47,377 bases of DNA. Origin: Tepidiphilus sp. J10. Its GTDB lineage: Bacteria > Pseudomonadota > Gammaproteobacteria > Burkholderiales > Thiobacillaceae. A program made the position numbers and the translations under genes. How positions within the stretch are numbered: position 1 is the first letter of the stretch; every line of letters begins with the position of its first letter. The stretch is taken from NCBI GenBank assembly GCA_945897955.1, contig CAMDGQ010000031.1, forward strand, positions 1-47,377. Reading direction: 5' to 3'. Below are positions 21,213-24,637 of this stretch, piece after piece. The notes under the pieces are model-generated. The model ran no database searches and had not been told where the DNA came from. It saw only the letters and a program-made list of their open reading frames with translations.

Positions 21213-21800
21213 TCAGCCCGCGAAGTTGGCTTCCGCGAACGACCAGTTGACCAGACTGCTCAGGAAGGTCTCGACGAACTTCGGACGCAGATTGCGGTAG
21301 TCGATGTAGTAGGCGTGTTCCCACACATCGACGCAGAGCAGCGGCTTGTCGGCGGTGGTCAGCGGGGTGCCGGCGGCGCCCATGTTGACGATGTCGACGG
21401 AACCGTCCGCCTTTTTCACCAGCCAGGTCCAGCCGGAACCGAAGTTGCCGACGGCGCTGGCCTGGAAGGCTTTCTTGAATTCATCCAGACTGCCCCATTT
21501 CGCGTTGATTGCGTCGGCCAGTGCGCCGGAGGGAGCGCCGCCGCCGTTCGGCTGCATGCAGTTCCAGAAGAAGGTGTGGTTGGAGACCTGGGCGGCGTTG
21601 TTGTAGATGCCGCCAGCGGGCGCGGTCTTGACGATTTCTTCCAGCGACTTGTCCTCGAATGCGGTGCCCTTGATCAGGTTGTTCAGATTGGTGACATAGG
21701 CCTGATGATGCTTGGCGTAGTGGTAGTCGAAGGTCTCGGCCGACATGTGCGGGGCGAGTGCGTCCTTGGCATAGGGCAGGGCGGGCAGTTGATGTTCCAT
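21213..21800 (-). CDS. sodB: Iron superoxide dismutase
   Basis: 195-residue cytosolic enzyme that converts superoxide to oxygen and hydrogen peroxide. The sequence follows enterobacterial SodB closely from PALPYAKDALAPHMSAETFDY through NFGSGWTWLVKKADG to DVWEHAYYIDYRN. Metal ligands are visible as the first His of HYAKHHQ, the His of NHTFFWNC, and the Asp and His of DVWEH. NAAQVSNHTFFWNC has Ser where Fe-type enzymes usually have Trp (VWNHTF), a neutral-looking oddity. I chose the ATG at 21800, which has GGAGAG 6-11 bases upstream, over an in-frame ATG at 21851 that would add a 17-residue extension unlike the family. Confidence 0.96.
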   Translation of the reverse strand: MEHQLPALPYAKDALAPHMSAETFDYHYAKHHQAYVTNLNNLIKGTAFEDKSLEEIVKTAPAGGIYNNAAQVSNHTFFWNCMQPNGGGAPSGALADAINAKWGSLDEFKKAFQASAVGNFGSGWTWLVKKADGSVDIVNMGAAGTPLTTADKPLLCVDVWEHAYYIDYRNLRPKFVETFLSSLVNWSFAEANFAG

Positions 21801-21904
21801 CTGGGTCTCTCCGGGGTTGAGTGAAACGGGGGTAAAAATTGGAGCCCGCATTTTACGGGGCGGGATGCGGTGCGGGCAATGCTTGACTGAATTCCTTGGT
21901 TATT

Positions 21905-22197
21905 ATCCTTGAAACAGCAGTTGAACCCGTCCGAGGGCGGGTTGGAGAAGCCGGCTGGCAAGGTAGCGGAGTCGTAGAGCGTTAGCTCGTACGAATCCGG
22001 CATACCCCTTGCGGGTGCGCGACAACGAGTCATGCCGAGGCATGGCGAGGCGGAGCAACGCAGCCAGACGGCTTCCCCACCCCGACAGCGGGCGGGTAGC
22101 GGGCTCACCCAAATGGTGAGCGTCATCGAAGCGCAAAACATCAGCCAGCATGGGGCCTCACGAGGGATAAGGAGCGGTCAACTGCTGTTTCAAGGAT
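21905..22197 (+). mobile_element. 293-bp MITE-like element with 20-bp terminal inverted repeats and RNA-like folding
   Basis: The outer ends are perfect 20-bp inverted repeats: ATCCTTGAAACAGCAGTTGA at 21905-21924 and its complement at 22178-22197. TATT immediately flanks both sides (21901-21904 and 22198-22201), as expected for a target-site duplication. No gene fits inside. Several hairpins are packed between the ends. One is CCCGTCC/GGGCGGG (near 21927-21942), which needs a U-G pair and so is better as + strand RNA. Others are an extended CGGA-CGTAGAGC-GTTA-GCTC-TACG-TCCG stem (near 21967-22003), CATGCC-GA-GGCATG (22031-22044), AGCC-agac-GGCT, and GCTCACC-caaat-GGTGAGC (22103-22121). The ends could also be the closing helix of one large structured RNA. 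The right end is 6 bases from the pbpC stop. Confidence 0.75.
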
Positions 22198-22203
22198 TAT
22201 TCC

Positions 22204-24315
22204 TCAGCGTACTTCGAATTCGACCTGATCCAGCACAACACCTTGCCTGTCGATCAATTGCAGGCGGTGCCTGCCGCGCGCGAGCGGCCAGGCTGCGGTT
22301 TCCTGGCGGATATCGTCGATTTGCCAGACCGCGTCGGCAGGCATATTGCGGGCGCGGAAAGTGAGTTGCTGGCGAGCCGCAGGGATGTCCGGGTCGAGCG
22401 CGAGGATCAAGCCCTCGCTCGGGTACTCGATGCCGCTGGCCGGCACGGCGGCGGACCAGGTTTCGGCGCTGGGTTCGCTGCCGGGAATGAACCATTCCCG
22501 GCGAGACGGTTCACCGGCCGGCTGGATGTTCCTGCGGATCAGGCCGGCGGCGGCTTTCGGCGGCAGCAGTGCGTTATCCGTCTCGTTTCCGGACGGATGC
22601 AGGTGATCCATGATTGCCGCCCAGGCCGGCGCCGCACCGCTGATGCCGGAGACATCGTGCATCGGGCTGCCGTCGAAGTTGCCGACCCAGACGCCGACGC
22701 TGTAGCGGCGCGAGTAGCCAACGCACCAGTTGTCGCGCATGTCCTTGCTGGTGCCGGTCTTGACCGCGCTCCAGTAACGTGTGGCGAGCGGGTTCTCCAG
22801 GCCGAAGGTCAGTGCGCGCGCTTGCCGGTCCGAGAGGATGTCGCCGATCAGGAACGCCGCCTGCGGGCTCAACACGCGCCGGGCGTGCGAGCGCGGCTGC
22901 TCGGGCCTGAAACGCAGCGCGGATATTCGGCCACCATTGGCCAGACTCCGATAGGCGTTGACCAGTTCTTCCAGGCGTACATCAAGACTGCCCAGCGCCA
23001 GGGCGTAACCGTAGAAATCGGCGGCTTCGGTCAATTGCTTGAAACCCAGTTCGGCCAGACGCGCAGCAAATGGATCAAGGCCGGTCAATTCCAGCGTCCT
23101 CACGGCGGGAATGTTCAAGGAACTGGCCAGCGCGACGCGCGCGCTGACCAGGCCGCGATAGGCGTGATCATAGTTCTCAGGGGTGTACTGCCCGCCGCCG
23201 GCAGCAATCGACAGTGGTTCATCGCGAAGCGGCGAGGCGGCGGTAAGCAGGCGCTGTTCAAACGCCAGTCCGTATAAAAAGGGTTTCAGCGTCGAACCTG
23301 CCTGGCGCGGCGCCCGCACACCATCGTTCTGTGCTGCACTCGATTCGCCGCTGCTCAGACTGACATAAGCCAGCACCGCACCGCTGGCGTTATCGACTAC
23401 CAGCGCGGCGGCGTCGCGCGCATTGCGGGCGGCGAGATGCCTGAGTTGCTGTGCCAGTGTTGCGCGCACATGGCGTTGCAGGGCGGCGTCGAGCGTACTG
23501 CGCCGGGAAGCATGTCCGGATAGCGCCAGTCTGTGCGCCAGATGCGGCGCCAGATCGGCGGCCGGCAGAATGGGGTAGCGCCCGCTGAGGACATTGAAGG
23601 TGCGCGCTGTCAGTGCTTCGCATTCGGTCACTGCCGCCAACGCGCAGGCTCGGCGGGCCACGTCTTTCGCTCGTGCGTTCGGCGAGCGGATCAGTGCCGC
23701 CAGAATCAGCGCTTCGTTATCGTTCAACCCGGCAGGACGCTTGTCGAACAGACCGCGCGTGGCGGCGTCGATGCCGGTCAGTTCACCGCGAAACGGCGCC
23801 AGGTTCAGATAGGCCTCCAGTATTTCCGCCTTGCGCCAGGTCTTCTCGATGGTTTTCGCCGCCTGCATCTGACGCCATTTCTCGGCCACGTCCCGACGAG
23901 CGACCCGGGCGCGGTATTGCGCATCGAGCAGGCCGGCGAGCTGCATGGTCAAGGTCGAGGCACCACGCGGTCTTTCGTTCATCCAGTTGGTCAGCGCGGC
24001 TTTGCCGGCGGCCAGCCAATCGACGCCGGCATGTTCGAAGAAGCGTTGGTCCTCCGCCTTCAGCACGGCGGCGATCAGGGCCGGTGAAATATCCGCCAGT
24101 GGTGTCCAGAGTGTGCGGCGCACCTTCGGATCGACGCGGGTTTCCTGCAACAGTTCGCCATTGTGGTCGAGCAGCCATGCTTCAGAGGAACGCCAGTTGG
24201 CGCGCACCTGGGCGAAATCGGGCAGGGCGGCCTGCAGCGGGGCGGCCAACCCGAGCAGGACGCAAAGCAGTCCCCCCGCGAGATGGCTCCTGGCGCGGAA
24301 GTTGATCAATGACAT
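22204..24315 (-). CDS. pbpC: Penicillin-binding protein 1C (peptidoglycan glycosyltransferase/transpeptidase)
   Basis: 703 residues, anchored or exported by an N-terminal hydrophobic segment (AGGLLCVLLGLAAPLQA). The glycosyltransferase-51 domain shows EDQRFFEHAGVDW, RGASTLTMQLAGLL and KAEILEAYLNLAPF. The transpeptidase domain shows the catalytic serine in GSTLKPFLYG, SSLN, and KTGTSKDMRDNWCVGY. A C-terminal BiPBP-type beta domain follows (about 600-703). I took the ATG at 24315, two bases after the preceding gene's stop; the frame is open further upstream but that part is antisense-like noise. It is the last gene of a macroglobulin operon, the standard yfhM-pbpC pairing, in which PBP1c is thought to repair peptidoglycan after damage by trapped proteases. 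Confidence 0.93.
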   Translation of the reverse strand: MSLINFRARSHLAGGLLCVLLGLAAPLQAALPDFAQVRANWRSSEAWLLDHNGELLQETRVDPKVRRTLWTPLADISPALIAAVLKAEDQRFFEHAGVDWLAAGKAALTNWMNERPRGASTLTMQLAGLLDAQYRARVARRDVAEKWRQMQAAKTIEKTWRKAEILEAYLNLAPFRGELTGIDAATRGLFDKRPAGLNDNEALILAALIRSPNARAKDVARRACALAAVTECEALTARTFNVLSGRYPILPAADLAPHLAHRLALSGHASRRSTLDAALQRHVRATLAQQLRHLAARNARDAAALVVDNASGAVLAYVSLSSGESSAAQNDGVRAPRQAGSTLKPFLYGLAFEQRLLTAASPLRDEPLSIAAGGGQYTPENYDHAYRGLVSARVALASSLNIPAVRTLELTGLDPFAARLAELGFKQLTEAADFYGYALALGSLDVRLEELVNAYRSLANGGRISALRFRPEQPRSHARRVLSPQAAFLIGDILSDRQARALTFGLENPLATRYWSAVKTGTSKDMRDNWCVGYSRRYSVGVWVGNFDGSPMHDVSGISGAAPAWAAIMDHLHPSGNETDNALLPPKAAAGLIRRNIQPAGEPSRREWFIPGSEPSAETWSAAVPASGIEYPSEGLILALDPDIPAARQQLTFRARNMPADAVWQIDDIRQETAAWPLARGRHRLQLIDRQGVVLDQVEFEVR

Positions 24316-24316
24316 G

Positions 24317-24637
24317 CTATCGGTGGCTGCCGCCAGACTCCGGTTGGTCGCTCGCCTGCGGTTCGCAGGTATAGACCTGCGCCATTTCACCGCCACCCCG
24401 GCAATCCCGCGTAAGCACGTCGATGTACTGGCATCCCGGATTGCAGACCTGGGTGAAGCAGAGCGCGGTTTTGCCGGCGAAACCCGGCGTACAGATGGCC
24501 GCATCCGGCATGTCGCCGTCGCTGCCGATGACTTGCCGGCCCGGGCAATCGCCCTCGTCAACCAGCCGCCAGCCGGCCTGCGCGAGTGTTGTCGCCAGCG
24601 TTAGCGCCAACAGGGCCGGCGCAATCCTCTGTCTCAC
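24317..24637 (-). CDS. Small cysteine-rich exported protein in the macroglobulin operon
   Basis: 106 residues starting with GTG at 24637, which overlaps the macroglobulin stop codon (GTGA). The stop falls one base before the pbpC start. A clear signal peptide (MRQRIAPALLALTLATTLAQA) is followed by a mature protein with seven cysteines: GDCPG, AICTPG, ALCFT, QVCNPGC, RDCRGG and YTCEP. The spacing suggests disulfide-stabilised folding in the periplasm. The tight coupling on both sides shows it is made with the macroglobulin and PBP1c. I do not recognise the family. A protease-inhibitor-like or bait role is an attractive guess, but nothing in the sequence proves it. Confidence 0.8.
   Translation of the reverse strand: MRQRIAPALLALTLATTLAQAGWRLVDEGDCPGRQVIGSDGDMPDAAICTPGFAGKTALCFTQVCNPGCQYIDVLTRDCRGGGEMAQVYTCEPQASDQPESGGSHR

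Follow-up and report, generated by a model that had tools for sequence, protein, structure and literature searches.

A short element in Tepidiphilus sp. J10, located between two genes within the 47,377-nucleotide stretch of contig CAMDGQ010000031.1 that was analysed here as a whole (the window), combines transposon-like ends with a hairpin-rich interior, which raises the question whether it is a piece of mobile DNA, a structured RNA, or both at once. The original prediction had proposed a candidate mobile structured RNA, comparable in style to the HEARO/omega RNAs. Its mobility was borne out, as was a hairpin covarying on one strand, while the connection to HEARO/omega RNAs had to be given up. 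As the favored explanation, we consider it moderately probable, judging from sequence comparison, that the element belongs to a class-wide family of miniature transposons (MITEs) whose + strand is transcribed into a hairpin RNA kept by selection, with the tip of this hairpin being recognized by a protein.

Borders, copies, and mobility of the element

Alignment of the window copy against other copies placed the element at 21907-22195, giving a length of 289 bp (299 bp counting both target duplications) in place of the 293 bp first proposed for 21901..22201. Likewise, the repeat and the duplication initially described as 20-bp ends with a TATT flank are real, with the same bases now being cut differently. 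Terminal inverted repeats of 18 bp and identical sequence, CCTTGAAACAGCAGTTGA, on the left (21907..21924, + strand) and on the right (22178..22195, - strand) are enclosed by a perfect 5-bp target-site duplication, ATTAT (21902..21906 and 22196..22200, neither assigned to a strand). Taken over 21902-21924 and 22178-22200, the inverted repeat spans 23 nt and is 96% complementary. The copy is flanked on one side by an iron/manganese superoxide dismutase gene (21213..21851, - strand; PF02777, PF00081), given as the longest open reading frame with a true start that probably lies further in, and on the other side by a penicillin-binding protein 1C type gene (pbpC; 22204..24561, - strand; PF00912, PF00905, PF06832), whose stop codon is found 4 bp from the right ATTAT duplication.

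Evidence for mobility comes from copy number, target duplications, and a corresponding site in a relative. Within its own genome, a 3.9 Mb draft of 128 contigs with 4.9% contamination, the element had 54 BLAST matches, and a degenerate pattern of its ends was detected at 77 sites compared with 3 for the reversed control, with 28 end pairs being spaced 130-300 bp apart (counted by hand from the site list). Further matches were obtained in 21 of the 22 other genomes of the genus, so that the proposed BLASTN check for additional copies turned out positive; outside the genus, BLAST matches were weak and seen in 2 of 18 genomes. In total, 75 distinct end-bounded elements were collected, with length peaks at 234/235 (36 elements), 289 (5), and 294 bp (5). 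A perfect 5-bp duplication accompanies 36 of the 75, and in all 36 the second base is T and the fourth is A (TTCAA 12, TTTAA 5, TTGAA 4, ATTAT 3, ATCAT 3, plus others). A relative (G021, L189) has no element in its corresponding pbpC-sodB gap; this gap has diverged, and the absence is therefore not equivalent to a base-exact empty site. Being short and devoid of a transposase gene, with terminal inverted repeats and a duplication of fixed length, the element is by its sequence features a non-autonomous DNA transposon (MITE).

Several side observations accompany this collection. Further size classes of 294, 345, and 366 bp are represented by L097, L098, L100, L280, L281, and L270, and the pbpC-sodB gap of another relative (G016, L198) carries a different palindromic repeat of the GTAGGGTGTGGTGAG... 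type. In two pairs of copies (L003/L005 and L006/L011) the left flanks are alike and the right flanks differ, suggesting strain mixture or chimeric contigs in the draft genome. Together with the contamination level, these pairs imply that some of the mismatched duplications may be assembly chimeras.

Insertion sites and search for the mobilizer

For 76 copies, 152 flanks were evaluated: the closest gene call is on the - strand of the element in 76 flanks and on the + strand in 45, leaving 31 without a call (the gene caller is crude, and the count takes L074 twice and L006 and L011 with their shared flank). Open reading frames chosen for their closeness contained a Pfam domain in 37 of 50 cases; the Pfam-confirmed neighbors, pbpC included, comprise 28 of 33 tested on the - strand and 10 of 18 tested on the + strand. 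Twenty-three confirmed genes end toward the element, and 10 of them use the TNA of the duplication as their stop codon. One insertion (L075) occurred in an ATGA stop/start junction with both genes staying open, another (L332) lies between two ABC transporter genes, and a third (L304) separates a response regulator gene from a histidine kinase gene. Such sites may reflect either target choice or the survival of harmless insertions.

An autonomous element with the same ends was found neither in the own genome nor in four further genomes, and no mobilizing transposase was detected in these genomes or among 27 examined IS1380 loci. None of the 27 has the 18-bp ends, and the own genome gave no IS1380 match. 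The IS1380 family still supplies possible mobilizers, since two of its members in the order share the CC start and a 5-bp duplication with the element, namely L235 (ends CCTGAyTCCGTGACC, duplication TGAAA) and L237 (ends CCCAAATTT, duplication TTCAT), and the ends of a further one, L166 (CCCTGAATCCGCAAGTT), resemble variant ends such as CCTTGAATCCTCAGTTGA. An end-bounded stretch of 1776 bp (L322, 509-2284) was considered as the autonomous parent and rejected, as it seems to be a copy into which an IS4-like insertion with inverted ends of its own (GGTAACGGTGTCTGG) has been nested; its score against NF033592 is 72.7 bits, under the 115-bit cut-off.

Conservation of the interior hairpin

The interior had been described as a chain of stable hairpins. 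What holds across copies is one long hairpin with a special tip, termed P2 (21925..22097, + strand) and defined by covariation, by the asymmetry of mismatches described below, and by a covariance model of P2 alone (model R2), which matched the window copy at 21925-22100 with 65.4 bits on the + strand and 24.7 bits on the - strand. Its outer arms extend over 21925-21959 and 22063-22097 of the + strand. The tip (21960..22062, + strand), characterized by tandem G.A steps, was delimited on the basis of other copies; its strands correspond to 21960-21963 plus 22017-22027, and to 22047-22061. A small stem, CTCACC-N5-GGTGAG (22104..22120, + strand), did not fare as well, with 88.6% of cells paired and 0 of 6 pairs changed on both sides. 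It is followed by a 3' tail (22121..22177, + strand), whose sequence is conserved mainly within the genus. A peptide encoded by the 3' half was rejected in view of in-frame stops in L077 and L080 (own reading of the alignment) and the lack of conservation of the tail outside the genus.

Elements of 230-237 bp numbered 41, of which 35 entered a first structure alignment; six that scored low against the window element were excluded. The aligned elements show a mean pairwise identity of 75% (minimum 60%). Across these 35 elements a hairpin of 35 columns holds its pairing while the letters change in blocks. Over 54 pairs, a count that includes the terminal repeats, which covary as inverted repeats anyway, 96.4% of the cells are paired (83.1% in shuffles) and 25 pairs are double-changed. 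None of 500 shuffles matched any of five measures, a figure that is not a probability because the shuffles ignore relatedness, and slid versions reached 32-43%. For the interior hairpin alone, 19 of 31 pairs are double-changed at 97.0% paired cells. A wider set of 32 sequences, composed of 11 of the 35 elements hand-picked for diversity and 21 loci from 16 other genera, raised this to 32 of 37 P2 pairs with 95.9% of cells paired, slid versions giving 29-44%. The extended stem-loop and its + strand U-G pairs, both part of the original prediction, are thus present again in other copies, in which P2 does not drift and compensatory changes on one strand maintain it.

At its tip, P2 consists of isolated Watson-Crick pairs with G.A/A.G steps between them. 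One of these steps reads A.G in 32 of 32 and G.A in 28 of 32 sequences, with less regularity at the step closer to the base (G.A 19/32, A.G 22/32). The Watson-Crick pairs separating the steps change on both sides, one position being C-G in 27, G-C in 3, and A-T in 2 sequences. Lower down, the stem retains a tandem U.G/G.U in wobble form, in 24/32 and 20/32 sequences.

Strand asymmetry and the nature of the folded molecule

Since the pairing of a DNA palindrome is uninformative on the strand, we counted G.T and A.C mismatches on a hairpin defined by geometry, for which about equal numbers are expected without selection on one strand. Within the genus, 88 G.T compared with 11 A.C were found among 1,223 cells; the 32-sequence set, evaluated with strand-neutral geometry, gave 116 versus 8 among 1,120 cells, and the sequences outside the genus alone 90 versus 6 among 735. 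Counted as gained events on a tree, the ratio is 51 to 8, and 22 to 3 in terms of columns. The signal was weaker (14 versus 7) for pairs taken from a G-U-free fold on both strands, as expected because the wobble columns are left out. Consensus folding is congruent with this asymmetry, yielding -96.9 kcal for the + strand versus -72.0 kcal for the - strand within the genus and -96.8 versus -43.7 kcal outside it (21 rows, one misoriented). The window element by itself folds markedly better than its shuffles on either strand (z -7.3 on +, -8.3 on -; 0/100 shuffles as good for each). The terminal repeats, which had been proposed to act as a closing helix, fit this role outside the genus with a lean of 33 G.T versus 5 A.C, while within the genus they are neutral (5 versus 3).

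The excess of G.T over A.C indicates that selection acts on the folded + strand of the window. Transcription-linked cytosine damage would presumably push in the opposite direction, because the neighboring genes are mostly on the - strand. Compensatory changes beyond the controls and strand specificity, as required of a conserved structured RNA, are both found. Tandem U.G/G.U wobbles and tandem G.A steps are typical of RNA, and their conservation in P2 favors RNA over DNA as the folded molecule. Since the folded strand is mostly antisense to its neighbors, its transcription would need a promoter of its own. Between 21750 and 22350 around the window copy no promoter-like site was detected on the + strand, the sole one in this region reading toward the dismutase gene from outside the element. 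This counts against the RNA reading, as does the antisense orientation, and a separate transcript is a supposition.

Distribution and repeats with other ends

When searched with a covariance model built on its interior (R1), the family proved to extend much further, with matches in 52 of 200 genomes of the order and 36 of 108 genera. Model R2 matched 80 of 369 genomes of the class and 62 of 272 genera, including weak hits and hits with other ends. Both models were short-calibrated, so that their E-values are approximate, and searches of more than 40 genomes used stricter filters. A rough reading of strands among the listed R1 matches of G044 and G203, with the origin taken to be at position 1, gave no evident bias toward one replication strand. 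In all 21 loci outside the genus (L285-L305), which represent 16 genera and 13 families, the end sequence directly flanks the borders of model R1 (by eye), and an exact duplication is present in 13. On class level, 28 of the 30 returned loci were examined, leaving out L335 (own genome) and L339 (genome already seen). Both 18-bp ends are present in 18 of these, 7 of which also show an exact duplication. Named contigs combining an exact end with a BLAST match to the element are mostly betaproteobacterial drafts, one being labeled Hydrogenophilales.

In the remaining 10 class loci the hairpin is bounded by different ends: a variable TATACCC...GGGTATA type in seven, GGGCCTGTTCACACTA in one, and others in two; L306 and L310 are further cases. 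A tip common to repeats with other ends suggests that something besides the transposase recognizes it. From copy number, we infer that the other-ended repeats may be mobile as well, genome G199 (L307) alone containing at least 12 near-equal matches of its repeat. Other-ended palindromic repeats with the same tip were noted at L306, L307, L308, L309, L310, L311, L347, L350-L356, L358, and L359, and at L310 two tips in opposite orientation lie within one 26-bp inverted repeat. Plasmids were searched without a match for the window element, L306, or L298; for L310, a repeat with other ends, one match turned up in a Variovorax plasmid. A phage search with L304 was without match; in viral contigs, 10 stretches contain an exact tip string, none of them matched by R1 at E <= 0.01.

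Proposed mechanism and alternative explanations

For the MITE family with a selected hairpin RNA, the following course may be envisaged. A DDE transposase encoded elsewhere would be supplied in trans, cut the ends, and insert the element at WTNAW sites; as these include stop codons and ATGA stop/start junctions, the duplication would restore both neighboring genes intact. The + strand would be transcribed and fold, with the terminal repeats closing the structure, and the conserved tip with its tandem G.A steps would be bound by a protein. The folded + strand RNA would be what selection keeps, with the same tip riding on repeats with quite different ends. As a guess, its role could be that of a small trans-acting or protein-bound RNA aiding persistence of the element, not that of a part of neighboring mRNAs. 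A more far-reaching version remains tentative at best. Here, the hairpin would be a class-wide RNA domain with a G.A-step tip, a module carried on several unrelated small transposon families and expressed as a ribonucleoprotein serving mobility or persistence. If this applied, an RNA-based selfish function would exist within DDE-type elements settling at stop codons and operon junctions. The usual view of small palindromic transposons is that of decayed filler; here a precise single-strand fold is kept over large evolutionary distances, and the tip shared between different ends makes a working RNA in a MITE directly testable. Independently, insertion at stop codons and ATGA junctions shows a route into operons without gene breakage.

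The strongest competitor, which we regard as unlikely, states that the folded strand acts as single-stranded DNA, exposed during replication or transposition and read by a DNA-binding protein. Strand-specific pairing is equally expected in this case, the window sequence also folds as single-stranded DNA far below its shuffles (z -9.56), and the conserved GTAGCG that follows P2 is reminiscent of the GTAG tag in REP hairpins (PMC3733652). On the other hand, the retention of tandem U.G/G.U and G.A steps in 16 genera is RNA-typical, and the ends and duplications indicate a DDE enzyme working on double strands. REPs and REPINs are extragenic palindromes as well, and GTAG follows P2 in nearly all element copies; REPs measure 20-40 bp (PMC3733652), whereas the element has 235-289 bp with transposon ends and duplications.

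A cis-acting mRNA device, in which the hairpin would function in read-through transcripts, for instance as an RNase III site as in Correia elements, appears distinctly improbable. It would agree with the copies at 3' ends and within operons, and Correia and ERIC elements act in this manner (PMC10969869), but 76 of the 121 called flanks have their gene on the - strand of the element, and an mRNA from there would contain the complement, which is less conserved. In general, Correia/NEMIS, ERIC, BOX/SPRITE, and QMITEs are below 500 bp, with terminal inverted repeats, target duplications, stem-loops, and locations at gene ends, and some such bacterial MITEs affect mRNA or yield small RNAs (PMC10969869). 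The element resembles them in size, inverted ends, duplications, stem-loops, and gene-end sites. It differs in its GC content of 0.65, MITEs being typically AT-rich (PMC10969869), and, as compared by description only, in the one-strand covariation over 16 genera and the tip common to other-ended repeats.

Even less credible is a passive palindrome, in which template switching or gene conversion between the arms keeps the pairing and the fold has no function. The arms do change in blocks while staying complementary, and the terminal repeats change jointly; such a process predicts perfect Watson-Crick arms, however, and leaves the excess of G.T over A.C, the kept wobbles, and the G.A steps unexplained. 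The strand asymmetry led us to reject it. A HEARO/omega-type RNA of an IS200/605-like element, which would likewise be mobile, structured, and of similar size, is the least plausible of all, as the inverted ends and 5-bp duplications are of DDE type, no Rfam 15 model matched at gathering score, and no associated nuclease gene was seen at the loci examined, so that the likeness is one of style.

The Rfam 15 covariance models were applied to the window and to 20 of the 21 outside-genus loci, with 0 matches at gathering score. Membership in any Rfam family was rejected, since the sole overlapping matches are below threshold. These comprise a Trans44_sRNA match overlapping the element or palindrome at L273 (E 0.051, 19.9 bits versus a gathering score of 108) and matches to microRNA families, the best at L356 (E 0.011, 31.1 bits versus 86). 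In the literature, with most subscription papers and ISfinder outside the scope, no article joining Thiobacillus with MITE was found, and none that describes the element family, judging by titles and the opening of abstracts. Four of six tip or end strings were absent, one occurred in a single Rhodococcus paper, and agtatacccg appeared in seven papers with seemingly unrelated titles. This looks like a structured family absent from Rfam 15 and apparently undescribed; if an RNA, it would add an abundant structured family to what Rfam 15 has.

The 53-bp palindromic insert

The window copy is a member of the 289-bp class, which is the rarer one and carries a 53-bp palindrome (21964..22016, + strand), absent from the 235-bp class, within the tip. 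With its tip split by the insert, this copy is a mosaic, and any RNA made from it may lack function. The 3' part of the insert, allowing up to 3 mismatches, occurs at eight places in the own genome: three are in elements of the 289-bp class, one (C14) adjoins a degenerate version of the ends, and four (C1, C8, C18, C71) do not lie in an element of this kind. Three of the latter four are in frame in genes with Pfam domains, namely an OmpA family gene, an oligopeptide ABC ATPase gene, and a uracil-DNA glycosylase gene. Repeats of about 53 bp (L216, L217, L221, L222, L223) are located between the halves of the oligopeptide ABC ATPase and at the end of the uracil-DNA glycosylase gene, and the in-frame repeat ends in the peptide ESGVPLAG. 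We take this palindromic repeat to be reminiscent of the Rickettsia palindromic elements.
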